A stretch of DNA of 33,314 nucleotides. Origin: a bacterium. GTDB lineage: Bacteria; Patescibacteriota; Saccharimonadia; Saccharimonadales; Saccharimonadaceae. Numbering within the stretch: position 1 is the stretch's first letter; every line of letters starts with the position of its first letter. The stretch lies in the NCBI GenBank assembly GCA_030429975.1, contig JAUIGB010000011.1, positions 1 through 33,314 on the forward strand. The letters run 5' to 3'. The position numbers were made by a program, and so were the translations under genes. Positions 3,631 to 30,596 of the stretch are shown in pieces. Under the pieces are notes generated by a model that ran no database searches, was not told where the DNA came from, and saw nothing but the letters and a program-made list of their open reading frames with translations.

Positions 3631-3993
3631 CTATTCGCTGAGTAGCGTGACTTGAAGTATGACGATAATAAGTACCAATACCGCGATTACAAACAATTGC
3701 TGAGGAGCGGCCTTGTCGCTAGCGGGTAGCTTGCCAGCACGAATACTTTTTTCGGCCATTTTATACCTACGGTTACCAATGAGTGCAATCAAGATACCTA
3801 GTATTAAAATAAGCAGTCCCGGTAAGGGGCTGCTTTTGTAGAAGGCTGCTAGGGCTATTCCACCGGCTACGACTGCCAATCCGGTTCGTATCCAAGCTAG
3901 TAAGGTTCGTTCGTTTGCTAGCAGGAGCTGTACGTCCGCGCTATATTTTTCGTGTTCAAAGGCTTTTTTGTGTTCTCTGTCTTTGTCCGTCAT
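3631..3993 (-). CDS. DUF202 domain membrane protein
   Basis: The protein has 120 aa. The DUF202 signature LLLANERTLLAWIRTGLAVV (residues 23-42) is clear. Three transmembrane segments lie at about 33-52, 57-73 and 99-117, with a short cytoplasmic N-terminus rich in K, E and H. The function of the family is unknown; related YidH-like proteins are inner-membrane proteins. It has its own extended -10 (TGGTATAAT) ending 6 nt before the ATG, so it is predicted leaderless. It is divergent from the next plus-strand gene. Confidence 0.9.
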   Translation of the reverse strand: MTDKDREHKKAFEHEKYSADVQLLLANERTLLAWIRTGLAVVAGGIALAAFYKSSPLPGLLILILGILIALIGNRRYKMAEKSIRAGKLPASDKAAPQQLFVIAVLVLIIVILQVTLLSE

Positions 3994-3999
3994 GTATGG

Positions 4000-4024
4000 A
4001 TTATACCATGAAAAGTGGTATAAG
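4000..4024. promoter_or_regulatory. Divergent extended -10 promoters (DUF202 gene / 4032 gene)
   Basis: Minus strand: TGGTATAAT (4008-4000), 6 nt before the ATG at 3993. Plus strand: TGGTATAAG (4016-4024), 7 nt before the ATG at 4032. Both are TGn-extended -10 elements without a good -35, and both place the start site at or next to the start codon. Confidence 0.6.
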
Positions 4025-4031
4025 TATGTAT

Positions 4032-4796
4032 ATGGAAAGAGAGTATACGGGTAACGAGCCTCACGAATTGCAACAGAGCTTTAATGATGTCGCCAGAGAG
4101 CTGTATGACAGATTGCCTGCGTACGGAATCAAAGCAATTATACGTTTTGATAGTCAAGAGCGTAGCGAATCCTGGCTGGCCTATGTCAAAGAATACATGG
4201 ACAGCGACCGCAACAGCCATCTGTCCATAGGCGAACGCGCTATGGAATGCTATATGGCATGGATGGATTTGTATGAGTTTCAGTCAGACGTAGTGTCATC
4301 TGTCACTACGATAAAATTCATAGATTTGAACCCAGATTTCGACATAACGCCAAAAGAAAACTCAATCAAAAAGAAGCAGTTGCAGGCGGAATTGATTTCA
4401 CATCATGGACTGGCATTGGATGAACCTTGGCAGCGTTTCATAGACCTAGAAACACCAAACGTCGAAGGACTCCGCGCCGACGACGAGTACTACCAAACAT
4501 ACCTGAACGAATCGTTGTTGACGGTTGAAGAGAGTATGAATGAACGAATAGTTGCTAATCAAGAAGTTCGTGACGCATGTGATAAAGTCGGGGCCACGCT
4601 GATGGATTTAGGCAACACGCTAGAAATCGTGTCCGCCGTAAAGGCTATGCAGGCATTGTGCCAACGAGCCCCCAATGACATGAGCCCGCAACTTTACAAG
4701 GGCTTGTTCGAAGTTGGAAAAGAACTTCACGTAGACGAGAAATACGGTAAACAGACGCTACTATGTTTGGTCGAGTTCTTTCACGATAGGTATTAG
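4032..4796 (+). CDS. Hypothetical protein, 254 aa
   Basis: I do not recognise this protein. It begins MEREYTGNEPHELQQSFNDV, is acidic and predicted mostly alpha-helical, and has no signal peptide or membrane segment. The start at 4032 was chosen because an extended -10 lies 7 nt upstream; in-frame ATGs at 4008 and 4026 are alternatives, and the longer frame from 3915 runs antisense into the DUF202 gene. The 3' end shares 4 bp (TTAG) with the convergent membrane-protein gene. Confidence 0.7.
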   Translation: MEREYTGNEPHELQQSFNDVARELYDRLPAYGIKAIIRFDSQERSESWLAYVKEYMDSDRNSHLSIGERAMECYMAWMDLYEFQSDVVSSVTTIKFIDLNPDFDITPKENSIKKKQLQAELISHHGLALDEPWQRFIDLETPNVEGLRADDEYYQTYLNESLLTVEESMNERIVANQEVRDACDKVGATLMDLGNTLEIVSAVKAMQALCQRAPNDMSPQLYKGLFEVGKELHVDEKYGKQTLLCLVEFFHDRY

Positions 4797-5494
4797 TGCT
4801 TGCGAAGCGGGGTCTTGGACAGGGGCATTACGCGCCATACAAGCACAATTGCCAGTATGATCGCAAATCCACACATGATGGACGGAATGGCGCGCATAGT
4901 GGCTGGATCCATCATGTTCGCCACCATTGCAGGTACGATAAAGGCCGAATAACCAATAACCGTCCAGCGTAGCGCTGCAGCTTGTTTGGGCTTTTGACGC
5001 GCCCATAATGTCGCCAAGGCAATCGTTACTAGTAACCAGCCAAAGTAATATGTTCCATAGAATAGGTAACCCTGGCCATCCATATCGAATATGGCGTAGT
5101 TTGGCGCGCATTGACTGCTGATTACCTGGGCGCCATAGGCAATGAAATACAGCACGTATCCTAGAGCCGTCGCGTATGCCGCGAATATCAGTGGCCTAGC
5201 TTTCTTTTTCGCGAGTGCTGCCGTTAGATGAATACCAAGAGCTGGCAATAGTGTAATCGCGACATAACCCAGCTGTACCCATTCTGCATGACCAAGTCCT
5301 AGGCCTCCGCAGATCATATATTCCGCAAGCTGGAAAACACCCAAACAAAACAGCATGGCAACGACGATCTTTGTAACGGTAGTTAGTTTATATCGCCACA
5401 ATACATAAAAGGCCATCGCGAACTCTAACAAAAAGGTCACCAACATTACCGGCGGTGAAAAACAGAATGTTTTGCCAAAGTAGCCGTCACGCAT
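4793..5494 (-). CDS. Seven-transmembrane hypothetical protein
   Basis: The protein has 233 aa with seven hydrophobic segments at about 16-33, 43-62, 72-94, 101-119, 143-165, 175-195 and 203-223. The loop before TM5 holds SSQCAPNYAIFDMDGQG. The layout resembles the 7-TM sensor modules found at the N-terminus of some histidine kinases, but no kinase domain follows. No catalytic motif was recognised. A TATACT hexamer lies 8 nt before the ATG. The stop overlaps that of the convergent gene by 4 bp. Confidence 0.75.
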   Translation of the reverse strand: MRDGYFGKTFCFSPPVMLVTFLLEFAMAFYVLWRYKLTTVTKIVVAMLFCLGVFQLAEYMICGGLGLGHAEWVQLGYVAITLLPALGIHLTAALAKKKARPLIFAAYATALGYVLYFIAYGAQVISSQCAPNYAIFDMDGQGYLFYGTYYFGWLLVTIALATLWARQKPKQAAALRWTVIGYSAFIVPAMVANMMDPATMRAIPSIMCGFAIILAIVLVWRVMPLSKTPLRKH

Positions 5495-5567
5495 ATGTTA
5501 ATAGTATACACCTTTTTTCACGCTCATGTTTGAGTCTGTGACTGCCGTGTGGTTTTATAGATACACT

Positions 5568-6488
5568 ATGAAACATGACAGGGGCGAAAACTGGGGCGCA
5601 AGTGATTTGGATGACGAGCTTTGGTTGCTATTGGAACAGCATCCGAAAGTCATCGAAGAAGAGGAAACGAACGAAGAGCATCAGTTAATACGGGAATCAG
5701 TCGAGGAGATGGTAGGAATGCTGACCGAGTGGGCTCAGCACCATCCTGATATGAACTTGATTATTGATTCGGACGGTAAATGCACGGACGAACAGTTTAC
5801 CAACTACATGTTTTCGATTACGGATAGCGTCGAAAACCAAATGATGACTGACCCGGAATGGTCGGGATTGTATGGAACTAGCGACTTCGTGCCTTATAGG
5901 GAGCTTGTCAGCCTGGATAAATACATTAAAGAACGAGAGTTTCAGCACGTACTCGTGTTTTTGGGATCACGTATTATCTATAACACACGCAAAAAAGACA
6001 CGGAGTTCGCGGGACTGATAACCTCGGACTATTACAAAAAGAACTCGCAGGTGGTGCTCGCCGCTGTGTTTCCAGAACAGTTCACTGAATCATGGCAGGA
6101 ATTCTTTGCCGAGTCCGTTCCGGGCGCGTCGTTTGATCCGACCAATTTTGACGACCTAATCTATACACAGCAAGCCGAGGCATTCGCCGCGCATGTTCAC
6201 GAGCGGCGCGAGCACGACGAGCAGGTTTATGCCTATATGCAAGAAATACTGGGAATTGATCCTAGTGTTCGGTCTATAGAAAACGCCAGAATATCTTGCT
6301 CGCTAAAGATTATCCAAGAAATAGCCTCGGATCATTATGAGGTTTCGGCAGAAAAGAACGGTCGGGCTAGCAGGAACAGATCTGTCTGTGAATACGCTCA
6401 TACCGCCGGCTTTGATTCTGAAACTATTGCAAAGATCGCCGATTACTTGGATCGCAGTTACCCAATCCAGTCTATGCGCGGCATGTAA
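5568..6488 (+). CDS. Hypothetical protein, 306 aa
   Basis: I do not recognise this protein. It is strongly acidic ([20 protein letters not shown] near the N-terminus), soluble and probably helical, with several Trp-Glu-rich stretches. The start at 5568 ([10 protein letters not shown]) is preferred because TATAGA ends 6 nt upstream, the spacing seen for neighbouring genes. An in-frame ATG at 5526 would add 14 residues. It is divergent from the 7-TM gene and upstream of fusA, which has its own promoter. Confidence 0.68.
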
Positions 6489-6513
6489 CCCTTTTGCTAC
6501 TAGCGTAAACACC

Positions 6514-6529
6514 TATAATCTGCTACAAT
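6514..6529 (+). promoter_or_regulatory. fusA promoter (tandem -10 candidates)
   Basis: TGCTACAAT (6521-6529) is an extended -10, the same form seen before infA. TATAAT at 6514-6519 lies ten bases upstream as an alternative. Start sites would leave a leader of about 65-75 nt carrying AGAGGA about 12 nt before the ATG. Confidence 0.55.
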
Positions 6530-6600
6530 ATCTCGAGAGCGTTATTTTTTTATGTCAAAAAATAACTAAATTAAGTAATAACAGAGGAATATTAGCAATC

Positions 6601-8694
6601 ATGGCAGTGAAAAACGTCCCACTTAAGGACTATCGAAATATCGGAATTATCGCCCACATCGACGCGGGCAAAACAACTACTACCGAAGGTATTTTGTACC
6701 GAACGGGTATTAATCACAAAATCGGTGAAGTTCGTGGTGCCGATGGCGACAGCGCGACAACCGACTGGATGGCGCAGGAGAAAGAACGTGGAATCACTAT
6801 CACGTCCGCCGCGGTTACTTGTTTTTGGAACGAGTGCAAAATCAACATCATTGACACCCCTGGTCACATCGACTTTACTGCCGAAGTCGAACGATCACTA
6901 CGCGTGCTAGACGGTGCTGTTGTGGTGTTTGACGGTAAAATGGGCGTCGAAGCTCAGACTGAAACAGTTTGGCGCCAAGCTAACAAATATGGCGTCCCTC
7001 GTATTTGCTTTATTAACAAAATCAACCAAATTGGTGGTGACTACTACAAATCACTAGAGACTATTCATAGTCGTCTATCAAAACACGCGTTGCCTGTACA
7101 CCTACCGATTGGTTTTGAAAAAGAAATCAACGGTGTAGTTGACCTGATTGAAATGAAAGCCTATACCTACAAAGAATACACGGACAAAGCCCTAGTAGCT
7201 GGCGATATTCCTGCCGACATGGAGGAAAAGGCCAAGAACGCACGAAGCCTACTAGTCGAAGCGGCTGTAGAGGCTGACGATGAGTTGTTCGAACGATACC
7301 TGGACAAGGGCGAAGATTCTATTAGTGTCGAAGAGCTAAAGTCTGCACTGCGTAAACGAGTCCTAGATGGTGACTTTTACCTAGTGACAGGTGGCGATGG
7401 CCGTGGTGTTATCGTCGAAAAGGTACTAGACCTAGTTGCAGATTTTCTACCATCACCACTAGACGTTGGTTCTATCAAGGGTACAAATCCAAAAACTGGC
7501 GACGCCATGGAGCGACATGCCGATGTCAAAGAACCTATGTCTGCACTGGCATTCAAAATTGCGACCGACCCATTTGTCGGCCGACTGATATTCGTTCGTG
7601 TTTACAGTGGCGAACTAAAGTCTGGTAGCTATGTGTTTAACGCCGCTACCGGCGAAAAAGAGCGCGTAGGACGCGTAGTCCGAATGCACGCCGACAAGCG
7701 TGAAGAAATCGATGGCATTGGCGCAGGCGACATCGCAGCCGTTGTAGGCCTAAAGAACACGTTTACCGGCCATACGCTATGTGATATGGCGAACCCAATC
7801 ACACTAGAAAGTATTTCATTCCCAGAACCACCTGTATCTATTGCCGTCGAGCCAAAAACAAAGGCCGATCAAGAAAAAATGGGTATCGCGCTTCAGCGAC
7901 TTGCCGAAGAAGATCCAACCTTCCGTATTCACACCGACGAAGAAACTAACCAGACAATTATGTCTGGAATGGGCGAGTTGCACCTGGATATCCTAGTAGA
8001 CCGAATGAAGCGCGAGTTTAATGTGGAGGCAAACATCGGTGAGCCACAGGTTGCATTCCGCGAAACCATCCGTGGCACGGCACAGGCACAGGGCAAGCAC
8101 GCCAAGCAGTCTGGTGGTCGTGGTCAGTACGGTGACGTATGGGTTCGTTTCGAACCTACCGAATCTGGCGAAGGATTCGAATGGGGCGATGAAATTAAGG
8201 GTGGCGTTGTGCCTCAAGAATACCGAGCAGCCGTCGAAAAAGGTATCAAAGATACTTTGGCCGGCGGTGTTATCGCCGGATACCCAATGATTGGCGTCAA
8301 AGCTACTCTTTATGATGGTAGCTATCACGATGTTGACTCGAGCGAGCTAGCCTTTAACCTAGCTGGTGTGCTATCTGTAAAAGAAGGTATTCCAAAGGCT
8401 CAACCAGTACTACTAGAACCTGTTATGCGCGTCGAAGTTACTACGCCGGAAGAGTTTATGGGCGATGTAATTGGAGACCTAAATAGCCGTCGTGGACGTA
8501 TAGAGGCCATGGAAGACCTACAAGGCGGTGCCAAGCTAGTAAAAGCAATGGTGCCACTAGCGAGTATGTTCGGTTATACGAATGATGTTCGATCTATGTC
8601 CCAAGGTCGCGCCGCGAGCACAATGGAGCTAGAAGCTTACGAGGAAGTTCCGCCAAACGTCGCGCAGGAAATCATCGAAAAACGCAAAAAATAA
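6601..8694 (+). CDS. fusA: Elongation factor G with atypical G4/G5 motifs
   Basis: The protein has 697 aa, full EF-G length. It catalyses GTP-driven ribosomal translocation and, with RRF, ribosome recycling. The P-loop AHIDAGKT (18-25), switch-1 RGIT (63-66) and G3 DTPGH (85-89) are intact. Domains II-V follow, with [20 protein letters not shown] (domain III) and [14 protein letters not shown] (domain IV). Two guanine-base contacts are unusual: the NKxD motif reads N139-K-I-N142, and the GSA motif reads G264-G-D266. The start at 6601 gives the family N-terminus; an upstream in-frame extension was rejected. rpsL and rpsG are not adjacent. A hypothetical gene follows after 4 nt. Confidence 0.95.
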
Positions 8695-8698
8695 ACGA

Positions 8699-9352
8699 AT
8701 GGCAACGTCGTACGAGCAGTTAAGTAGCTTGTCTAACGAGAGACTGGCCAACACGAACGTGTATTGGCCTATCGATGAAGTAAGGGACTTCACGATTGAC
8801 ACTATAGAGAACTATTACAGAACTCACATTTCGAATGATTTTACGCTACCTGAGGGATATGACCACTTCTCGCACAGGTCAGATTCGAACCAAAAAATAC
8901 AGTACCTAAAAGATATTGGAGTCCGGGCAGTCCGCTACGCTCTCGTGATGTTTGCGCGCTTTGATGACGAAGATGACATAAGGGCTCTGCCGATGTACTC
9001 GGATTATGAGAGCCGATCCAATCGAAATGTGACTGGAAGCTATCACAGTGCCATTGTGGACGATTATTATTATCATTCCTACGATGAACGGGCCGAGGAG
9101 TATGGTTTTCGGTCCGCTGGCGGGATGGATGTAATTAGTGGCGAAGCCATTCTGTTGGAACACGCAGAAGGGCCGACAGTATATCTGCGCGTTCCAAGGG
9201 GTAAAATGCTATCAGATCAGCACCGTGATGCCATGACTGCAATGTCATTGGATTTTCCTGACGCAAAATACGCGGTGCTAACCGGTGGAATGTCGCAGTA
9301 CGCTATTTTCCACGAAGGTGTAACCGAGGAATTTCCACCCGATTTTGTATGA
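8699..9352 (+). CDS. Hypothetical protein downstream of fusA, 217 aa
   Basis: It starts 4 nt after the fusA stop and so is probably co-transcribed with fusA. It is soluble and acidic, with a Tyr/Asp/His-rich middle (DDYYYHSYDERAEEYGFRS, about 121-139). I do not recognise a family. Residues 70-99 (LKDIGVRAVRYALVMFARF...) resemble residues 62-91 of the gene upstream of tuf (LERAGVEAISHAHVQFGNF...): L, GV, A, A, V, F, F, D, A and P are shared in register, suggesting distant paralogy. It ends in TGA, showing UGA is a stop here. Confidence 0.72.
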   Translation: MATSYEQLSSLSNERLANTNVYWPIDEVRDFTIDTIENYYRTHISNDFTLPEGYDHFSHRSDSNQKIQYLKDIGVRAVRYALVMFARFDDEDDIRALPMYSDYESRSNRNVTGSYHSAIVDDYYYHSYDERAEEYGFRSAGGMDVISGEAILLEHAEGPTVYLRVPRGKMLSDQHRDAMTAMSLDFPDAKYAVLTGGMSQYAIFHEGVTEEFPPDFV

Positions 9353-9423
9353 GAGGCAACCTTGGAATTAGCTTTGAAAAACAAGCATAAGTTCTTGAAA
9401 AATTCCCAAAATGTTAAAAAGTA

Positions 9424-9475
9424 TTGATTTTTCTGACCATTAGGTGTAAAATGAAGCCAACCACATATAGTGTGG
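9424..9475 (+). promoter_or_regulatory. Promoter and 5' hairpin of the hydrolase-like gene
   Basis: TTGATT (9424-9429), a 17-nt spacer, then TAAAAT (9447-9452). The start site would be near 9459, directly before a small inverted repeat CCACA-tatag-TGTGG (9461-9475) that would fold at the 5' end of the message. The rest of the 160-bp gap 9353-9512 shows no other feature. Confidence 0.6.
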
Positions 9476-9512
9476 ATGAGCGGAAAAAGATACGATGACG
9501 GAGGAGTTATAG

Positions 9513-10553
9513 ATGACTCACGAAATTATCAGACCAAACGAAAGATGCATCAAAGAAGGCACCCTGCTGACGCTGGGTGCCGTTTCATTAGCGGCCACTG
9601 CTGCTTTTGCCACTGATTATTCCGTTCACCGCCACACCTACAAGGACAAAAGCGACAAAGCGCGCGTGCTAACTACCCAACGTCCTGGAGAATATTCCGT
9701 CCTGGTCTTTCCCGGATATCATGCAGATGGCGAGATACTAGCGAAAAACTTTGACAAGCACCTAGAACACCTGGGTACAACCCATTTTGTTGTGCATCCA
9801 GAGCGTGGTATGAATCTCGATTCGTATAAGGATGAGATACTAAAAGCACGAAAAATGGACGGACATCGTCCATTATTAATTTATGCACTGTCCATGGGGG
9901 CGTTACTAGATGCAAAGATAGCGTCTGACGAGGGCGTTCGTCATGAAATGGGTGAAATACACCGAAAAGTACTAGACAGCCCACTATCCGGAAAAGGCGA
10001 TCTAGATATAGTGTCCAGACTGGGGATACTGGCAGGGAGCCTGCTACCGGCAACTTTTAGCACGGACAGAGTGTACCACCTCGTGAATCAATTGGGTCTA
10101 GGCGACGAATCACTGGACTTTGATCCGGAATTGGTCACGCGGGAAGAGGCCGAAGAGCGCCTGTGGTCTACGCGTAGGGTCAGGTACGCGGCGGCAAAGG
10201 GCCAAATACCATTCATGCACCGCGAAAACATGGCAAAAATGGATTTGTCACAGGCGGGCGCCGAACTAGACGAGGGAATTATTGTACTATCATCGCTTGA
10301 GGATCACCTCATTAACACGCGTCGATCGGCCGGCGTTATTAGCGACTCGTACGACATACCGGTGGAATTTCGTTACGACCTAACGCGAAAAGAAACTTCA
10401 CATGCAACTGGTCCCGAGAACCCAAGGGGTGTAGTAGATGCCCTGGAAGGCAAGAATCGCGACAAATACATGACGCTGGATATCCGCAATACTATTCGCA
10501 AATATCAAGAAAACAAAAAACGTCGCGCAATTTGGCAGAAAAAACCAGCCTAG
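9513..10553 (+). CDS. Membrane-anchored alpha/beta-hydrolase-like protein
   Basis: The protein has 346 aa. A signal anchor spans residues 16-34 (GTLLTLGAVSLAATAAFAT). The next part looks like an alpha/beta hydrolase: strand YSVLVFPGYHADG (61-73), then a nucleophile elbow YALSMG (124-129, Ser127, with Ala in place of the first Gly), an acid candidate in SSLEDHL (Asp264) and a His candidate in TSHATG (His297), in the order Ser-Asp-His. The domain would lie outside the cytoplasm. A strong Shine-Dalgarno (GGAGGAG) lies 8 nt upstream of the ATG. Substrate unknown. The stop shares 4 bp with the convergent gene. Confidence 0.68.
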   Translation: MTHEIIRPNERCIKEGTLLTLGAVSLAATAAFATDYSVHRHTYKDKSDKARVLTTQRPGEYSVLVFPGYHADGEILAKNFDKHLEHLGTTHFVVHPERGMNLDSYKDEILKARKMDGHRPLLIYALSMGALLDAKIASDEGVRHEMGEIHRKVLDSPLSGKGDLDIVSRLGILAGSLLPATFSTDRVYHLVNQLGLGDESLDFDPELVTREEAEERLWSTRRVRYAAAKGQIPFMHRENMAKMDLSQAGAELDEGIIVLSSLEDHLINTRRSAGVISDSYDIPVEFRYDLTRKETSHATGPENPRGVVDALEGKNRDKYMTLDIRNTIRKYQENKKRRAIWQKKPA

Positions 10554-11266
10554 CCAAAACGACGATATATAAAACCAAACTTATCTTCGGATATATTCTT
10601 TAGCATGGGATGTTCTAATCTATCTTGGGATTCATAATCTTCGTTTGGTAGTATGCCTAGGAACATACTGACGGGTTTTGCAGCGGTTTGACGACTGACG
10701 TCGTATAGTGGACCAAACTTCGATACGATCGTGCGCATCATTCTGTCCGACAAAGTCCTTCTGCCGTATTTGTCGAATGTCGCTTCGAGTTCGACGTCGT
10801 CAATCAAATGGGCGTCGGTCAGAGACTCATTCAGGGGGTCTCCTTCGTTTTCTAGTATATGAGCGCGCAATTCCCCGTATATTAGGTCTTGGTCACTTTC
10901 TACGCGCCATGAATTCGCAGGGGCTTCAGCGTAGTTGATGTCATAGTGACTGCAGACATTGCACGCTGGAGCGCCTAGACAGCGAACTGTCCTATTATCT
11001 ATGTTCGGTCGTGGCCATTGGTCATAATCACGCCCCCATAACATCGAAGCAAAAGCTAGGGATGCGCCCAGCTGGGCTTTTGGATGATAGGACTGAATAG
11101 TACGCACGTTCGACTCGTCGTCTTTCATAATGCCGTATAGCTTGTTCAAAATAGGATCAAGGACGGGATATACATCGGCGGGGTCGAGTGCCTCGCCATC
11201 AGATTCATATTTCCAACCTATGTCAGTTGCCCTCACGCCCCAGATACGATGTTCATTATTTGCCAT
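10550..11266 (-). CDS. Hypothetical protein with a cysteine cluster, 238 aa
   Basis: I do not recognise this protein. It begins MANNEHRIWGVRATDIGWKY and is soluble. A cysteine cluster CLGAPACNVCSHYDINY (C-x5-C-x2-C, then H) in the middle could bind a metal. The ATG at 11266 was chosen because TATGAT ends 6 nt upstream; an in-frame ATG at 11293 lies inside the divergent promoter. The stop overlaps the hydrolase-like gene by 4 bp (CTAG). Confidence 0.7.
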   Translation of the reverse strand: MANNEHRIWGVRATDIGWKYESDGEALDPADVYPVLDPILNKLYGIMKDDESNVRTIQSYHPKAQLGASLAFASMLWGRDYDQWPRPNIDNRTVRCLGAPACNVCSHYDINYAEAPANSWRVESDQDLIYGELRAHILENEGDPLNESLTDAHLIDDVELEATFDKYGRRTLSDRMMRTIVSKFGPLYDVSRQTAAKPVSMFLGILPNEDYESQDRLEHPMLKNISEDKFGFIYRRFG

Positions 11267-11272
11267 GCAGAC

Positions 11273-11278
11273 ATCATA
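11273..11278 (-). promoter_or_regulatory. -10 element of the 238-aa gene
   Basis: TATGAT on the minus strand, preceded directly by TG, with 6 nt (gtctgc) to the ATG at 11266. Predicts a leaderless transcript. Confidence 0.5.
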
Positions 11279-11286
11279 CACTAATA

Positions 11287-11315
11287 TTGACAAATTGTGT
11301 CGCTTATGCTATAAT
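11287..11315 (+). promoter_or_regulatory. Consensus sigma-70 promoter, leaderless gene
   Basis: TTGACA (11287-11292), a 17-nt spacer and TATAAT (11310-11315), a perfect consensus match, with a TGC extension of the -10 (11307-11309). Only 6 nt (gaaggt) separate the -10 from the ATG at 11322, so RNA would start on the start codon. Confidence 0.85.
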
Positions 11316-11321
11316 GAAGGT

Positions 11322-11912
11322 ATGAGTGAGCAATCGAAATACCAGAGGTATATGGACGTTGTACGTGATAATATTCGTCACAACGACCACTTTCCACGTA
11401 TACGAGATGCTTCAATATATTGTACTGACGTAGTGGGCGAGTATTATTCTGACTCCGGGGATGAGCTAACGGATGTATGCGGCTTTACGAACTATACGGA
11501 AGTATTAGAACGCGCCGGTGTCGAGGCTATTTCTCATGCTCACGTACAATTCGGAAACTTCGCTGATTCGGATGAATTCGTTGCCGTACCTTGGGTACTC
11601 GCGCCAGACGGCGTCGTAACCAAAATAGACGGGCCAGACCTAATGCACGGTCACCTAGCTGGCGATTGTTACGAGTATCTAAAAGACGGTAAGTTTGAAT
11701 TTTCTAGGCAAAATCCGACGTATTTGCGCGCATTTTGTGCTGCGAGACCCGGCCAAAAGGCGCTGTTTTTGATTGATTTGTATACTAAGTACAATGACAT
11801 TCCCAATATAGGCAAAGAGGCCCTAGACGTGATGGGCACGGAACTCGCCCCAGTTGCAAAGGTAATCGCGAAGTTCTATACGGGCGACTTGCCAGTCATA
11901 AAGTTAAACTAG
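11322..11912 (+). CDS. Hypothetical protein upstream of tuf, 196 aa
   Basis: It begins MSEQSKYQRYMDVVRDN; soluble, no recognised domain. Residues 62-91 resemble part of the gene downstream of fusA (see that entry). The start at 11322 is fixed by the consensus promoter that ends 6 nt upstream; the longer frame back to 11130 would run through that promoter and is rejected. A perfect promoter implies strong expression despite the lack of a Shine-Dalgarno leader. Confidence 0.78.
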   Translation: MSEQSKYQRYMDVVRDNIRHNDHFPRIRDASIYCTDVVGEYYSDSGDELTDVCGFTNYTEVLERAGVEAISHAHVQFGNFADSDEFVAVPWVLAPDGVVTKIDGPDLMHGHLAGDCYEYLKDGKFEFSRQNPTYLRAFCAARPGQKALFLIDLYTKYNDIPNIGKEALDVMGTELAPVAKVIAKFYTGDLPVIKLN

Positions 11913-11919
11913 AAAACAC

Positions 11920-11948
11920 TTTACACACCCCTAAAATGCGTGTATAAT
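11920..11948 (+). promoter_or_regulatory. tuf promoter
   Basis: TTTACA (11920-11925), 17-nt spacer, TATAAT (11943-11948). The layout (AACACTTTAC ... GTGTATAAT) closely matches the infA promoter at 30672-30700. The start site near 11955 leaves a leader of about 82 nt. Confidence 0.8.
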
Positions 11949-12006
11949 TTAATCCATACGTCGCATAAACTCTATTAGATTTGTGCGTCAAAATTTTTAT
12001 TAATAA

Positions 12007-12022
12007 TTCGCAAGGCAGCGAA
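12007..12022 (+). promoter_or_regulatory. Hairpin next to the tuf ribosome binding site
   Basis: TTCGC-aaggca-GCGAA forms a 5-bp stem. Its 3' arm runs into the Shine-Dalgarno AAGGAG (12021-12026), which is 10 nt before the ATG. It could modulate initiation; no regulator is known. Confidence 0.4.
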
Positions 12023-12036
12023 GGAGAAAAATCTCA

Positions 12037-13221
12037 ATGGCAGATTTCGATCGAAGCAAACCGCACGTCAACGTTGGTACCATGGGTCACGTTGACCACG
12101 GTAAAACAACACTGACGGCAGCAATTACGACTGTCCTCGCAAAAAAACTACCTAGCGATGTCAACAAGCAAGTCGCTTACGACCAAATTGACAACGCACC
12201 AGAAGAAAAAGCACGTGGTATAACCATCGCTTCTTCTCACCAAGAATACGAATCAGAGAGCCGACACTACGCTCACGTTGACATGCCAGGACACGCTGAC
12301 TACGTCAAGAACATGATCACTGGTGCCGCACAAATCGATGGCGCGATCCTAGTGGTTGCAGCAAACGACGGCCCACTACCACAGACTCGTGAGCACGTAC
12401 TATTGGCTCACCAGGTGAACGTACCAAAGATCGTAGTATTCCTAAACAAGATGGACCTAGCCGACGAAGAGCTAGTCGAACTAGTTGAAATGGATGTACG
12501 TGAACTATTGACCAAGAACGGTTATGATGGCGACAACGCTCCTATCATCAAGGGTTCTGCTACTAAGGCTCTAGAAGGCGACGCTGCAAGCGAAGACGCT
12601 ATCATGGAACTAGTAAAAGCACTTGACGACTACATCGAAGAGCCAAAGCGCGACCTAGACAAATCATTCCTAATGCCTATCGAGGACGTTTTCTCAATCA
12701 AGGGTCGTGGAACAGTTGCTACCGGTCGTATCGAACAAGGTATCGTAAAACTAAACGACGAAGTTGAAATCGTTGGTATCCGCGACACACAAAAGTCTGT
12801 CGTAACAGGTATCGAAGCTTTCAAGAAGAATCTAGACCAAGGTCAGGCTGGCGACAACGCTGGACTATTGCTACGAGGCATCGAGCGCGAACAAATCGAG
12901 CGCGGTCAGGTAGTCGTAAAACCTGGCACATTGACTCCACACACTGAATTTGCGGCAGAAGTCTACATCTTGAAGAAAGAAGAAGGTGGACGTCACACAC
13001 CATTCAGCAAGGGTTACAAACCACAGTTCTACTTCCGTACAACTGACGTAACTGGTGAAGTTGAGCTACCAGCAGACAAAGAAATGGTCATGCCTGGTGA
13101 CACTGTAACGTTTAACGTAAAGCTTCTATCTCCAATCGCTATGGATGATGGTCTACGCTTCGCTATCCGTGAAGGTGGCCGCACCGTTGGTGCAGGTGTC
13201 GTAACTAAGATTACTAAATAA
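12037..13221 (+). CDS. tuf: Elongation factor Tu
   Basis: The protein has 394 aa, the usual EF-Tu length. It delivers aminoacyl-tRNA to the ribosome as a GTP complex. The P-loop GHVDHGKT (17-24), switch-1 RGIT (60-63), NKMD (137-140) and a GSA motif are canonical, followed by beta-barrel domains II and III ending [11 protein letters not shown]. The G3 region reads DMPGH (82-86), where most bacterial EF-Tu have DCPGH, and GTMGH replaces GTIGH. It is monocistronic: its own strong promoter upstream and an intrinsic terminator 18 nt downstream. It is separated from fusA by four genes. Confidence 0.97.
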
Positions 13222-13239
13222 TCAGAGTTATCACCAATG

Positions 13240-13266
13240 AAAACACCGCCGTAATGGCGGTGTTTT
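13240..13266. terminator. Bidirectional intrinsic terminator after tuf
   Basis: AAAACACCGCC-gtaat-GGCGGTGTTTT: a perfect 11-bp inverted repeat with T-runs on both strands. It serves tuf and the convergent gene that ends at 13283. Confidence 0.92.
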
Positions 13267-13282
13267 CTATTTGTAGGTTATT

Positions 13283-13720
13283 TTATTCGTATATACCCAA
13301 GGCTTGCTTTGTGTAGTCGTGTAATCGCTGTTCGTTCCTGTCGAATGGCGCGAATGTAGGTAACAGTGCCTTTAGTTCGCTGTCACGTTCATGCGAGTGA
13401 CCCGTTTCTTGATATGCAGACGCATAGCAAAAAGCCAGTCCAACTGGGGCTAATGTATGCAGTCTTTCGTCTACCTCGTCGCGTGCCACGTTACAAACTT
13501 GGCGTAGGTCGGCGAAGGTTTGTTGGAACTTTTCTTCGTCATTGACATGTATGACGCATTCATTGTATATCTCGGCTACTTTTGGATTCGATAATACACC
13601 TAGGACGCGCGAGGCTGTCGCTAGGTCGTGCTTTGGATACTCTAACTCTTCTATAGTTGGTAGTTCTGTTTCGTCGTGTTCGGCCTGCGCAGGGTCTGTG
13701 TTTGGTTCTAGGTCATTCAT
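13283..13720 (-). CDS. Hypothetical protein, 145 aa
   Basis: I do not recognise this protein. It is acidic at the N-terminus (MNDLEPNTDPAQAEHDETEL), soluble and predicted helical (KVAEIYNECVIHVNDEEKFQ onward). The ATG at 13720 is preferred over a TTG three codons upstream because TATACT ends 8 nt before it. It converges on tuf and shares its terminator. Confidence 0.68.
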   Translation of the reverse strand: MNDLEPNTDPAQAEHDETELPTIEELEYPKHDLATASRVLGVLSNPKVAEIYNECVIHVNDEEKFQQTFADLRQVCNVARDEVDERLHTLAPVGLAFCYASAYQETGHSHERDSELKALLPTFAPFDRNEQRLHDYTKQALGIYE

Positions 13721-13728
13721 AATTAGCA

Positions 13729-13745
13729 AGTATATGCATATGCAT
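13729..13745 (-). promoter_or_regulatory. -10 element and overlapping 12-bp palindrome
   Basis: TATACT on the minus strand (13734-13729) lies 8 nt before the ATG at 13720. Touching its upstream edge is ATGCATATGCAT (13734-13745), a perfect 12-bp palindrome, a plausible operator position. Confidence 0.45.
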
Positions 13746-13758
13746 GATGGATTGCAAA

Positions 13759-14148
13759 CTATCGGGGAGGTCGCATACCGGGCAGGAGGTTGCGAATATG
13801 CTTTGGCATACCCATAGTAGCCTTTTCTGGGGTAGTAGGGTCGTACAGTATGTGAAATATACGGTCGGCGCGAACTTTGACAGTGCGTTGATCACCATAA
13901 TCACGCAAGAGTTCCTGTAGCATAGCACCAATATTCTTGAAGGTTTCGTATGGTACGTCAAACGCATCTGCATCCGTTAATCCTTCGATTTCGGATTCCT
14001 GCAGTATGCGCTGAAAGCCAATCTCGATCTCTTGGACCGTGCCTATTCCGAAGTGAGCTTGGATTACCTCGAGGACGTCATTTGACAGGCGAATTCTATC
14101 GTCCTGTGTAATCTCTACGTGTCCTCTTGGTTCCCGCTCTGGTGACAT
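13759..14148 (-). CDS. Hypothetical protein, 129 aa
   Basis: I do not recognise this protein. Soluble and mainly helical, with a proline- and arginine-rich C-terminus (LLPGMRPPR). It has its own extended -10 (TGGTATAAT) and a leader of about 13 nt with AGAGGT before the ATG, so unlike several neighbours it is predicted to use a ribosome binding site. Confidence 0.7.
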   Translation of the reverse strand: MSPEREPRGHVEITQDDRIRLSNDVLEVIQAHFGIGTVQEIEIGFQRILQESEIEGLTDADAFDVPYETFKNIGAMLQELLRDYGDQRTVKVRADRIFHILYDPTTPEKATMGMPKHIRNLLPGMRPPR

Positions 14149-14167
14149 AATGTACCTCTATCCTTTC

Positions 14168-14176
14168 ATTATACCA
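14168..14176 (-). promoter_or_regulatory. Extended -10 promoter
   Basis: TGGTATAAT on the minus strand; start site near 14161 for the 129-aa gene. Confidence 0.6.
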
Positions 14177-14199
14177 CAAATTGGCTATAAAAGCTAATA

Positions 14200-15060
14200 C
14201 TAAAGATCTCGAGGATTGTCGACATATAGCATTTCGCCAGGTTGTAAGCCCAACATCTGCTCTACTAGATAATCCTGTTTGCCTCTGTAACGCTTTAATG
14301 CTCTATGGTGAATGACATTCATGTCGTCCCAGTACGCTGCGCTTTCCGATACTCTAGCGTCAGGGTCTTCGTCCAGCTCGTATTCAAAAGCTCTGTCGTA
14401 ATTTTCTAATTCGAATTCGATTAAAAAACTGGATGGTATTGATGGATAATCCTCGAGTCTACAATCTAAATCTAGGTAGCTGTCCTCGTTCTCCCAGTAA
14501 TCGCTGCTATCTATAATTGTAGATTTCTCGGTCGGGGTGATTATTACTGGTGTTGGAGCGGTAGCCTGTGTATTCAATGAGTGTGTTGGCAGAGGGGCAG
14601 CCCTTGCATTTATTGTTATTGAATTAATTTCTTCATCTTTCGTACCGTCTTCTCGTATACGTGGACCGTAGGAAACGCGAACCATATAATGGAATAAGGG
14701 GTCTCTGGCGGTTAGTGACTTTTCGACCTTTTGGGCGAGTATGTTAAAGGCTTCTGCGCCATGTTCTCGATTTATCAAACTTTTCCATTTGCCCCACCAG
14801 TCGGTTTTGCTATACGTTCCGACGACACCCTCGAAACCGTAATCATCACGATGTCGCGGAGGATGATAACCACCAAATGCCAAGTAATCATCGTTAAATG
14901 ATTTAATCAAATCCGAAAATGCATAATCTTGAAAAGTCGACTGACAAAATATCGCATCTATCTCACGATCAATGGAATAGATTTTACTATCGTATTCTTC
15001 TTTTGCCTTTTGTTCGTCATGTTCACGCTTGCGGTAATTGCTGGACTCTATTAATGCCAT
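14200..15060 (-). CDS. Hypothetical protein, 286 aa
   Basis: I do not recognise this protein. The N-terminal 35 residues are highly charged and probably coiled (NYRKREHDEQKAKEEYDSK). A Tyr/Asp-rich block (about 50-75) and a Thr/Pro-rich linker (about 155-180) precede an acidic C-terminal region (SYLDLDCRLEDYPS, then FELENYDRAFEYELDEDPDA). No membrane segment. A Shine-Dalgarno AAGGAG lies 8 nt before the ATG and a TATAAT at 15089-15084. Confidence 0.7.
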   Translation of the reverse strand: MALIESSNYRKREHDEQKAKEEYDSKIYSIDREIDAIFCQSTFQDYAFSDLIKSFNDDYLAFGGYHPPRHRDDYGFEGVVGTYSKTDWWGKWKSLINREHGAEAFNILAQKVEKSLTARDPLFHYMVRVSYGPRIREDGTKDEEINSITINARAAPLPTHSLNTQATAPTPVIITPTEKSTIIDSSDYWENEDSYLDLDCRLEDYPSIPSSFLIEFELENYDRAFEYELDEDPDARVSESAAYWDDMNVIHHRALKRYRGKQDYLVEQMLGLQPGEMLYVDNPRDL

Positions 15061-15083
15061 TATTGAACTCCTTGAATGGTATT

Positions 15084-15089
15084 ATTATA
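15084..15089 (-). promoter_or_regulatory. -10 element of the 286-aa gene
   Basis: TATAAT on the minus strand, inside repeat copy A, directly after the terminator of the upstream cassette; leader about 16 nt. Confidence 0.55.
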
Positions 15090-15123
15090 ACACAAAATGC
15101 GAAAACCCGCCAGACCACGGAGG
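15085..15123. repeat. Direct repeat, copy A (terminator-promoter module)
   Basis: 39 bp, 37 identical to copy B at 15488-15526. On the minus strand it carries one arm and loop of a terminator stem, its T-run, and the -10 of the next gene. Confidence 0.85.
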
Positions 15124-17667: not shown

Positions 17668-18579
17668 CTAGTAGCCTCCGCCACCAATTCCCCAGTATTG
17701 TTCTAGTGTATGAATACCCTTGTTCTTCATGTCCGTAGCGACCGAGACCCCGACATAGCGCCAGTGCCATGCTTCCGCGCTATAACCAGTGATAGATTCA
17801 TAGCCAGATTTGTATCGTTGGATAAAGCCGTACTTATGCCCGTTCTTTTTCATCCATGCATATTCACTAGTACCTGCAAAGCCATTTAAATTTTGACCGC
17901 TACCAGACAAGTCTACGGCAAAACCTGTCTGATGTTCACTATATCCAGGTCGCGCGCTAATCGTGTCTGCAACCGCCGTACTACCGTGATAGTTTACCCA
18001 GTAGTTGTATGTAGAAACCTGGTTGTCATACGAGCGATAGGTACTAGTGAGACCTAGCGATTCACCGGCTGCTGATGCCGCGCTGATCATGGCCGTTAGC
18101 TTTGCGAGTATTTTGTTACTAACGAGATAGCCGCTATAAGATACCAGATCAGAAGGCACGAAGTTTACGGGATTGAGACATCGTTTTTTGTTAACAACGA
18201 CATCTATGTTGTTGGGGTTGCCGTGCGTGCCACTTATTTTACATGCGGACGGAGTGACCACCTGGCCAGCCAATTGTGCTTGTAGGGCAGCTTCGGCTTC
18301 AGCTTTTCGTTTAGCCTCTGCCTTTTTGGCGGCTTCCTTTGCCTTGCGTTCAGCTTCCTCTTTGGCCTTTTGTTCGGCTATGCGTTTTTCACGGACCTCT
18401 GCTATCTTTTCGTCTATGTCCTTCAGGTATGCGGCAGTTTTTGTTACCTCTGCCTGGGTGTTTTGATGGGCATAATATTTAGCGATTTGCACGCCTCCGA
18501 CGGTAATTATGGATAATGCCAGCAAAGACCCGCCCAAGGTCAGGTGTCTGTTTTGTATTTTTTTGCTGATTCCGAGCAC
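17668..18579 (-). CDS. VanY-type D-alanyl-D-alanine carboxypeptidase (M15B)
   Basis: The protein has 303 aa. A signal anchor at about 13-33 is followed by a long charged coiled coil rich in A, E and K (about 41-103) and an M15 peptidase domain. The zinc-site motif SEHQTGFAVD (214-223) supplies His216 and Asp223; SAEAWHWRYVG supplies Glu269 and His272. STYRSYDNQ (179-187) is the usual substrate-side motif. The enzyme trims the terminal D-Ala from peptidoglycan stems outside the membrane; the coiled coil probably reaches it into the wall. It starts with GTG, 7 nt after a TATAAT that fits exactly in the gap to the upstream gene. Confidence 0.92.
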   Translation of the reverse strand: MLGISKKIQNRHLTLGGSLLALSIITVGGVQIAKYYAHQNTQAEVTKTAAYLKDIDEKIAEVREKRIAEQKAKEEAERKAKEAAKKAEAKRKAEAEAALQAQLAGQVVTPSACKISGTHGNPNNIDVVVNKKRCLNPVNFVPSDLVSYSGYLVSNKILAKLTAMISAASAAGESLGLTSTYRSYDNQVSTYNYWVNYHGSTAVADTISARPGYSEHQTGFAVDLSGSGQNLNGFAGTSEYAWMKKNGHKYGFIQRYKSGYESITGYSAEAWHWRYVGVSVATDMKNKGIHTLEQYWGIGGGGY

Positions 18580-27987: not shown

Positions 27988-28017
27988 CAAAAACCATCCT
28001 TACAGGGGTGGTTTTTG
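27988..28017 (+). terminator. Terminator of the ribosomal operon
   Basis: CAAAAACCATCC / GGGTGGTTTTTG, a 12-bp stem with one G-U pair and T5. It separates rplO from secY. Confidence 0.85.
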
Positions 28018-28040
28018 TATGGATAATACCACTATGAATC

Positions 28041-28049
28041 TGCTATAAT
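28041..28049 (+). promoter_or_regulatory. secY extended -10 promoter
   Basis: TGCTATAAT; start near 28056, leader about 38 nt. The leader contains a perfect 12-bp palindrome AATAGGCCTATT (28078-28089) just before the start codon. Confidence 0.7.
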
Positions 28050-28093: not shown

Positions 28094-29506
28094 ATGAATT
28101 GGAAGACAATCTTTAAATCGCTCAAAAACCGTAAAATGCAAAAACGTTTTGCGATTGTTTTAGGTATCGTGGTCGCGTATCGATTCTTGGCTCATATCCC
28201 CGTGCCACTAGCAGAGCCTACTGCCCTAAAAGAAGTTATTGAAAGCGTTGTTAGCTCAACCGACTTTGGTGGTTTCCTAAATCTGCTATCCGGTGGTGCG
28301 CTGGCTAGCTTTTCTATTGTGTTAGTAGGGCTCAGTCCTTTCATTACGGCCAGCATCATCACGCAGCTATTGACCAAGGCTATTCCAAAACTAGAGGAGC
28401 TACACAAAGACGGTGAATCTGGTCGACGAAAGATCAACCAGTGGACACGTATGATATCAGTTCCATTAGCGATTGTTCAGTCTATTGCATTTATATATAT
28501 CTTGCGACAAACGGTGCTAGCGGGCAACACGACAGCTCTAGATGGAGCTACACCTATAGAATGGGTCGTTGCCGTCACGGCGATGACAGCAGGAGCGATA
28601 CTGCTGATGTGGATGGGTGAGTTAATCACCGAACAGGGTATCGGAAACGGTATATCAATGCTGATCTTTGCCGGTATTATCAGCCAGTTACCGTCGACTC
28701 TAACGACCTTGGGCGTATCATTGTTCGATACGTCCGCGGGTATGCTTAGCGTATTTGGCTGGTTTGAACTGCCGCTGAATCCAACTGCGTTCTGGGTGGC
28801 ACTAGTGGTTGCGCTGTCGTCGCTAGTTGTGTTGTATTTGTTGGTCAAGATAAACGAAGCCCAGCGCGTGGTAACGGTTAACTATGCGAAACGAGTACAA
28901 GGTAACAGTAGCTATGGTGGAGTAAAGAGCATACTTCCAATCAAACTTATCGCGGCAGGTGTTATACCAGTCATCTTCGCGGTCGCGTTCCTTAGCTTGC
29001 CGGCCTTTATTGGACAGGTATTAAAGGCGACGGGAAATGTAGACTATGCCGAACTAGCAAACAATCTCATCCTGTGGTTCCAGGCGCCACAGCCAGGCGC
29101 ATTTACTGGTGACACCTTCGGGGCATTGATATATCCAGCTAGTTACTTCGTGCTCGTAATTCTGTTTACATACTTCTATACCGGTATCATATTCAACAGC
29201 AACGAGATTGCCGAAAATCTGCAAAAGCAAGGTGGATTCATCGAGGGTGTTCGTCCCGGACTGCAGACGGAAAAGTACCTATCGCGCACGGTAAACCGAC
29301 TCATATTGTTTGGATCATTGGTACTTGGTCTGATAGCAGTTCTGCCTTTTGTCGCGGAGTACGCGTTCGCTCAGGCGGGTATAACAGGCATTCAAAACCT
29401 CGCGATTGGCGGTACTGGCATACTGATTGTTGTCTCGGTCGCGCTTGAGAGCTTGCGTCAGATCAATTCGCGCGCGCTCATGGTTACATACGACGATTAT
29501 AAATAG
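28094..29506 (+). CDS. secY: Preprotein translocase subunit SecY
   Basis: The protein has 470 aa with about ten transmembrane helices. Early LAHIPVPLA and the TM2 plug region LNLLSGGALASFSIVLVGLS, then SPFITASIITQLL, MGELITEQGIGNGISMLIFA and the cytoplasmic loop KQGGFIEGVRPGLQTEKYLS are family hallmarks. It forms the channel for Sec-dependent export and membrane insertion. Unlike in most bacteria it has its own promoter after a terminator and is not followed by adk and map. Confidence 0.98.
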   Translation: MNWKTIFKSLKNRKMQKRFAIVLGIVVAYRFLAHIPVPLAEPTALKEVIESVVSSTDFGGFLNLLSGGALASFSIVLVGLSPFITASIITQLLTKAIPKLEELHKDGESGRRKINQWTRMISVPLAIVQSIAFIYILRQTVLAGNTTALDGATPIEWVVAVTAMTAGAILLMWMGELITEQGIGNGISMLIFAGIISQLPSTLTTLGVSLFDTSAGMLSVFGWFELPLNPTAFWVALVVALSSLVVLYLLVKINEAQRVVTVNYAKRVQGNSSYGGVKSILPIKLIAAGVIPVIFAVAFLSLPAFIGQVLKATGNVDYAELANNLILWFQAPQPGAFTGDTFGALIYPASYFVLVILFTYFYTGIIFNSNEIAENLQKQGGFIEGVRPGLQTEKYLSRTVNRLILFGSLVLGLIAVLPFVAEYAFAQAGITGIQNLAIGGTGILIVVSVALESLRQINSRALMVTYDDYK

Positions 29507-29517
29507 GAAATCTGTAG

Positions 29518-30207
29518 GTGGCAGGATTACAACTCGAACGAAAAAGTGGGCCAGGTTTCAAAGTTGTTCTCTTGTTCTTTTTAGGTATCGTATTCGTCGT
29601 GGGTCTAGGTGGCCTAGCAGCATATTGGTATAACACAGGTTATACGCCATTGGGACTCGCCGTGCCAGCTACAATACTTCAGCCTAGTATTGACAGCAAA
29701 GACGTATCTGGTGAACAAATATTGCAACACAAAGCGGACGATAGTAAGCCGAGGTATGTCAGCATACCCGCGCTGGATATAGAGAACGTACGAGTCTTCG
29801 CTATGGGTAAAGGAAAGCTTGGCGATCCAGCTGCCCCAAAGAACCTATATGATGCTTCGTGGTTTGACGAGAGTGCCGAGCCCGGACAGGAATACGGCAC
29901 AGTGACACTAACTGGATACGGAGACGGCGTTATGGACGGAGGCGTGTTCAGCGGTGCTTCCAAGCTAAAAAGTGGCGATGTGATCGCCATAGAGAGGGGT
30001 GATGGAACTATTGTTGAGTACGAGGTGGTCGAGAATAACACTGAATCAGTTGCAAAAGCCAATCAGTCGGGATTAAAGAGATTGTTTACGCCGTATGACG
30101 AGACCAAAGAAGGATTGGGGTTGATTGTAGTGACTGGATCATGGATACCAAAGGATAACCTATACGACACCCGCACGTTAATACGGGCCGTCGCAAAAGT
30201 AGATTAA
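29518..30207 (+). CDS. Sortase-fold protein lacking catalytic His and Cys
   Basis: The protein has 229 aa with a GTG start 11 nt after secY. A transmembrane anchor spans about 15-36. The extracytoplasmic part follows the sortase order: YVSIPALDIENVRVF (80-94), EYGTVTLTGYGDG (125-137), KLKSGDVIAIERGDGTIVEY (149-168) and LGLIVVTGSWI (200-210), then DTRTLIRAVA (217-226). The positions of the sortase His (AGH) and Cys (TC) are Tyr134 and Gly207; the Arg is kept (Arg219). So it probably cannot act as a transpeptidase and may bind peptide or scaffold at the Sec channel. Confidence 0.72.
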   Translation: MAGLQLERKSGPGFKVVLLFFLGIVFVVGLGGLAAYWYNTGYTPLGLAVPATILQPSIDSKDVSGEQILQHKADDSKPRYVSIPALDIENVRVFAMGKGKLGDPAAPKNLYDASWFDESAEPGQEYGTVTLTGYGDGVMDGGVFSGASKLKSGDVIAIERGDGTIVEYEVVENNTESVAKANQSGLKRLFTPYDETKEGLGLIVVTGSWIPKDNLYDTRTLIRAVAKVD

Positions 30208-30248: not shown

Positions 30249-30596
30249 ATGTCCGAAATAATAGACTTTGAGCAACGGGATACAGGACCCAACCCAGAAT
30301 CACAGATCTTTTTAAAACAGCTAATTGACGACTATCTACCTGCTGACGGCTATGAATTTTCACTGACCGAGCTAGCCGAGGATATCGAAGAACCCTACCT
30401 TCGCGTAAATAATGCGCTGTACAACCTCATTAAGCTGAATGCCTTAATATTCGACAGAAAAGACGACAGCGTGACAATACTCAGCAGAAAACCCGAAAAC
30501 GTAATGCCGGGCAAGTACAATAAAGCCTTTCCTGAGTATGGGCCTGATCTTGATAGCATTGCCCCTGATACAGATCGTCATAACCATCTTGACTAG
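30249..30596 (+). CDS. Hypothetical protein, possible winged helix, 115 aa
   Basis: Residues about 38-80 (SLTELAEDIEEPYLRVNNAL, then LIKLNALIFDRKDDSVTIL) read like a winged helix-turn-helix, flanked by polar tails. The family is not recognised. TAGGGT lies 6 nt before the ATG. It occupies the adk/map position between secY and infA. Confidence 0.6.
   Translation: MSEIIDFEQRDTGPNPESQIFLKQLIDDYLPADGYEFSLTELAEDIEEPYLRVNNALYNLIKLNALIFDRKDDSVTILSRKPENVMPGKYNKAFPEYGPDLDSIAPDTDRHNHLD

Follow-up and report, generated by a model that had tools for sequence, protein, structure and literature searches.

Sortases are cysteine transpeptidases, and the described subfamily nearest to the protein considered here is class F (NF033748), whose members combine an N-terminal helix with a sortase domain. 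According to PMC13251363, class F sortases have no known role, and deleting four of them in Actinoplanes missouriensis gave no phenotype. Class F is the best NCBIfam subfamily for our protein (55.6 bits), for two of its catalytically intact sisters (L005, 83 bits; L008, 86.7 bits), and for two other catalytically dead copies, but all five score between 48 and 87 bits, under the curated cut-off of 166. The family studied here further differs from class F in that it is fixed at the secY locus and 19 of 73 members lack the catalytic Cys. The pilin and housekeeping sortases of classes A, C, and E share the same fold (structural Z score of 14.2 for SrtE1 of Streptomyces coelicolor), but our protein has neither the catalytic Cys nor the His and is only 13–23% identical to them across the aligned part. 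A sortase family, fam000526, has been reported from over half of the CPR genomes (PMC6744442), although neither a secY link nor a loss of catalytic residues is mentioned in the examined text of that paper. In the literature searched, which covered few subscription journals, we did not find any Saccharibacteria sortase described as secY-linked or as catalytically dead.

Pseudo-enzymes are usually pictured as the result of a single ancient loss in a duplicated paralogue. At the present locus, which is tied to an essential translocon gene, the catalytic losses have occurred in parallel on many occasions, and no other sortase locus examined shows them. With a probability of about 0.5, we favor the reading that the protein is a membrane-anchored, outward-facing sortase-fold protein that has lost its transpeptidase activity and has been kept for a non-catalytic role. 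For the locus as a whole, the secY-linked dead sortase is probably a recurrently inactivated pseudo-sortase retained for binding or scaffolding. Matched live and dead pairs within one genus also provide a natural experiment, in which a possible binding role is separable from catalysis.

A sortase-fold protein next to secY

The window analyzed here is a stretch of 33,314 nucleotides from a member of the Saccharibacteria. It encodes a class-F-like pseudo-sortase of 229 aa at 29518..30207 (+), which begins with a GTG start located 11 nt past the stop codon of secY (28094..29506 (+); 470 aa; TIGR00967, 345.6 bits), the gene immediately 5' of it. The 11-nt gap given in the preliminary description is thus confirmed by the ORF coordinates, and such close spacing suggests that the two genes are cotranscribed. 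A sigma-70-like promoter match (10/12, as a match to the consensus only) is located 5' of secY at 28020..28049 (+). When window positions 27990–28049 were inspected by eye, a TATAAT box was evident before secY, together with an inverted repeat and a T-run after the uL15 gene; the short inverted repeat is absent from the scan output, which gave the promoter-like site.

The sortase fold, which had been proposed from the sequence, is borne out by several lines of evidence. Pfam Sortase (PF04203) matches residues 82–224 with 33.7 bits, above its cut-off of 26.6, and the AlphaFold model (with 26 family members) has a pLDDT of 90.9 and consists of a single N-terminal helix plus a beta-rich domain. 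Comparison of this model with solved structures returned sortases throughout: all 50 matches listed are sortases, with Z scores of 13.1–14.7, the top match being 3re9, SrtC1 of Streptococcus suis (VIA-align Z 14.7, rmsd 2.4, 130 residues), and the Foldseek list was likewise examined. The proposed membrane anchor agrees with the model as well, which places its one N-terminal helix at residues 14–40 (29557..29637 (+)), a predicted membrane helix. Since basic residues precede this helix, the sortase domain would be expected to reside outside, as judged by the pattern of hydrophobicity and charge from which both membrane insertion and topology are predicted.

Residue columns were read from an alignment of 78 secY-linked sequences out of 76 loci. 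Among the 73 secY-linked sortases with open frames, the catalytic His column of the window copy is occupied by Tyr134 (29917..29919 (+)), while Arg219 (30172..30174 (+)) is retained in the catalytic Arg column, just as had been claimed. The loss of the Cys is equally evident, but not its supposed replacement by Gly207. A near-gapless alignment of LIVVTGSW in the window copy with LITCAGNW of its live sisters sets the Cys column at Val205 (30130..30132 (+)), in an alignment with both secY-linked and other sortases, and Gly207 is ruled out as the substitute, being the conserved glycine that live enzymes carry two residues past the Cys. The protein contains no Cys residue at all and, given the known sortase mechanism, its sequence would therefore be incompatible with activity as a cysteine transpeptidase: the alignment indicates that the Arg of an active sortase is present, whereas the Cys and the His are both missing. 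Sequencing error is an unlikely source of the Cys loss, because three adjacent residues are altered jointly relative to L005 (T204V, C205V, and A206T) and the other dead copies derive from separate genomes.

The secY locus across the family

The family sample included 151 genomes of the window's family, 134 of which yielded secY. The DNA 3' of secY was read at 130 loci from 129 genomes; five genomes with secY (G070, G078, G087, G099, and G106) were left out due to a contig end near secY or a fragmentary SecY. A recognizable sortase is found 3' of secY at 76 of the 130 loci (75 genomes), which demonstrates that the linkage seen in the window is a conserved, family-wide feature. The frame is open in 73 of these and broken in L033, L055, and L089, which were excluded from both the tree and the count of dead copies. 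Relative to the end of secY, the sortase starts between -17 nt and about +170 nt in 72 of the 73, with some overlapping, and in the remaining case (L104, retained among the 73) the distance is 1.87 kb. No sortase was recognized at the other 54 secY loci, although its absence is unsure at three of them, where the stretch is shorter than 1 kb. The 54 loci where it is unrecognized, along with the three broken frames, indicate that the gene is dispensable.

The preliminary description had placed the sortase in a position usually held by adk, for which there is no local support: in the window's family, the next gene after secY is the sortase or, sooner or later, infA (IF1). Displacement of adk is likewise unsupported, and both ADK-family matches of the window genome are located on other contigs. 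At the loci examined, no partner gene is co-inherited between the sortase and infA, and the intervening ORFs vary among genomes. In the window, a 115-aa ORF (30249–30596) lies between the pseudo-sortase and infA; it has no Pfam match and, across the loci studied, a relative solely in G098. In one genome (G056), secY occurs twice, and a live sortase lies behind each copy; the two sortases (L094 and L107) belong to separate branches, which could reflect either a mixed bin or a duplication. When a family profile was searched across the whole order, sortases were found in 144 of 197 genomes, counted irrespective of secY linkage.

Recurrent loss of the catalytic residues

Of the 73 open-frame secY-linked sortases, 54 carry His, Cys, and Arg, and 19 lack the Cys. 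In these 19 dead copies, the Cys column holds Val, Tyr, Thr, Ser, Pro, Phe, Asp, Ala, or Asn, and the His has been lost as well in 12 and the Arg in 9; among the 73, there is no copy in which the His was lost and the Cys kept. A sortase tree built with the three catalytic columns removed requires 8 changes, of which 5 are forced by well supported branches. The sortase-independent SecY+IF1+uS13 tree, without genus g12, requires at least 8 changes (bootstrap 8–8), with 7 forced, likewise by branches with good support, on the protein tree and 6 on the DNA tree. The counts alone cannot separate loss from gain, and we read the changes as losses because regain of the full residue set is implausible.

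In genus g12, all eight sampled species are dead and miss all three catalytic residues. A scan of named genomes (80 secY loci, some genomes being shared with the family sample) contributed another 8 copies lacking all three residues, the majority of them from metagenome assemblies of rumen or gut. A dead g12 protein is still predicted to adopt the sortase fold (pLDDT 84.9; Z 15.7, rmsd 3.4, 159 residues). In g12, the Cys-Arg loop is also remodeled, which makes binding of a sorting signal in the classical groove doubtful in this genus.

Other sortases were surveyed in 29 genomes, picked so that all dead copies known at that point were covered. In these genomes, Pfam Sortase gave 107 matches, 29 of them secY-linked and 78 others. 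The comparison set consisted of 71 of these 78 plus 3 more, with 57 of the resulting 74 aligned and 17 read by eye; 7 of the 78 were left out, two of which have an in-frame TGA. One of the 74 (L035) comes from a genome in which secY was not found (G147), and its linkage status is thus unsure. None of these 74 sortases, for which secY linkage was not demonstrated, has lost His or Cys, and the resulting contrast of 19/73 versus 0/74 dead copies gives a Fisher P of 4e-7 with relatedness ignored.

Selection on dead copies and their possible role

Dead copies that are close enough for comparison are under purifying selection. For L091 and L092, which have lost His, Cys, and Arg alike, dN is 0.02, dS is 0.19–0.24, and omega is 0.08–0.11. 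L020 and L021 (Tyr, Pro; dS saturated) are identical at 192 of 227 residues, with 27, 19, and 124 differences at codon positions 1, 2, and 3, respectively. Pairwise dN/dS was computed for 14 pairs, of which YN00 returned no value for 13 and NG86 found dS saturated (undefined) for 9. Codon-model omegas, which are rough because most dS is saturated, were 0.048 for the dead g12 copies and 0.035 for the dead g18 copies versus 0.019–0.038 in three wholly live sets, and 0.038 in g1, a set of three live and three dead copies. The combination of parallel inactivation and purifying selection on dead pairs supports the view that, at the family level, these proteins are catalytically dead but retained. 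That the catalytic residues are repeatedly lost while shape and place are kept also suggests an additional function at the cell surface that does not involve catalysis.

The principal alternative is decay, in which case the window copy would be a relic under relaxed selection, heading to loss, and the other dead copies would be a mixture of relics. We consider this possible at less than an even chance, but decay has to be taken seriously where only the window copy is concerned. The window copy has no close relative among the 10 genomes of its genus in the data set. Of the six secY-linked copies from its genus that entered the tree, three (L005, L006, and L008) keep His, Cys, and Arg, indicating that it descends from an active enzyme. 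Relatives of this kind had been named at the outset as a sign of a decayed enzyme. They do exist, but inactivation is recurrent and the close dead pairs, as well as the dead g12 and g18 copies, are under purifying selection. On the sortase tree, the window branch (1.08 changes/site) exceeds those of its live sisters in length by a factor of 5 to 18 (L005, 0.16; L006, 0.23; L008, 0.06), and its SecY+IF1+uS13 branch is ordinary (0.064); it is therefore the sortase itself that has accelerated, through either relaxation or a change of role. The dispensability of the gene is also in keeping with decay. On the other hand, the window frame is still open despite an amino-acid difference of about 54% from its nearest sister, whereas neutral drift simulated to 44% identity left no stop in just 3 of 300 runs, and its differences from L005 show a third-position excess (97, 75, and 164 at codon positions 1, 2, and 3). 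The constraint seen in the window copy may be largely older than the loss of its His and Cys. In addition, the Cys motif is still encoded by L055 and L089, which like L033, the third copy with a broken frame, are real pseudogenes at the secY locus; the catalytic residues are thus not necessarily the first to go when the gene decays here. Dead copies are absent from the other sortase loci examined.

Two further alternatives fare less well. The dead copies might be regulatory pseudo-enzymes that pair or compete with a live sortase of the same cell and thereby tune its activity. Consistent with this, at least one further sortase was found in all 29 genomes searched, 19 of which carry a dead copy, and the search for an active sortase in the window genome yielded two candidates (L001 and L002) whose sequences have His, Cys, and Arg intact. 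However, dead copies co-occur either with one further sortase (G072, G051, and G077) or with several, and we regard the reading as improbable. In the window genome, no member of the LPxTG anchor family exceeded its cut-off (best 13.9 bits versus 20). Continued enzymatic activity by means of another nucleophile or chemistry, for instance with Ser or Thr taking the place of the Cys, is highly improbable. Four of the 19 dead copies do keep the His together with such a residue (L015, L016, L024, and L027), but elsewhere the column mostly offers no usable nucleophile, and in the window copy it is filled by Val, with the His that would act as base missing as well.

Returning to retention for a non-catalytic role, several features of the window copy can be considered in its light. 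The three live sisters of the window copy share 125 invariant positions, 77 of which are unchanged in it. The best preserved part spans residues 151–202 (29968..30123 (+)), from beta5 to beta7 and including the helix of the beta6/beta7 loop, where 28 of 34 invariant positions are kept (hypergeometric P 0.003 for a region chosen post hoc); the His region (residues 128–150) keeps 6 of 13. In known sortases, the site for the sorting signal takes its shape from the beta6/beta7 loop. Given this role and the preservation of the loop, it is plausible that the window copy presents a preserved binding face around a dead center. The sortase domain would then still bind a partner, most likely a substrate undergoing export, or the C-terminal tail of that substrate, on leaving the translocon, with a live sortase paralogue as the next candidate, and would serve as a holdase, adaptor, or decoy instead of a ligase. 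Active secY-linked members probably share this binding role, which would explain why catalysis could be lost repeatedly with both the gene and its place retained.

For reduced epibionts such as the Saccharibacteria, the proteins on the cell surface are probably important in attaching to the host. A broader proposal, which we advance tentatively and regard as somewhat doubtful, is that the secY-linked sortase constitutes a two-function, translocon-associated binding module in which the ligase is optional. Catalysis would have been dropped at least 8 times in parallel as well as in every species sampled from a gut/rumen genus, and the module itself would be selected as an export-side adaptor of the epibiont surface.

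Elsewhere in the window, a protein encoded near the ribosomal protein cluster at 17668–18579 (-) resembles, by its motif, a VanY-type D-alanyl-D-alanine carboxypeptidase, and several unassigned ORFs of 130–350 aa are found around fusA-like and tuf-like genes at 3900–15100.
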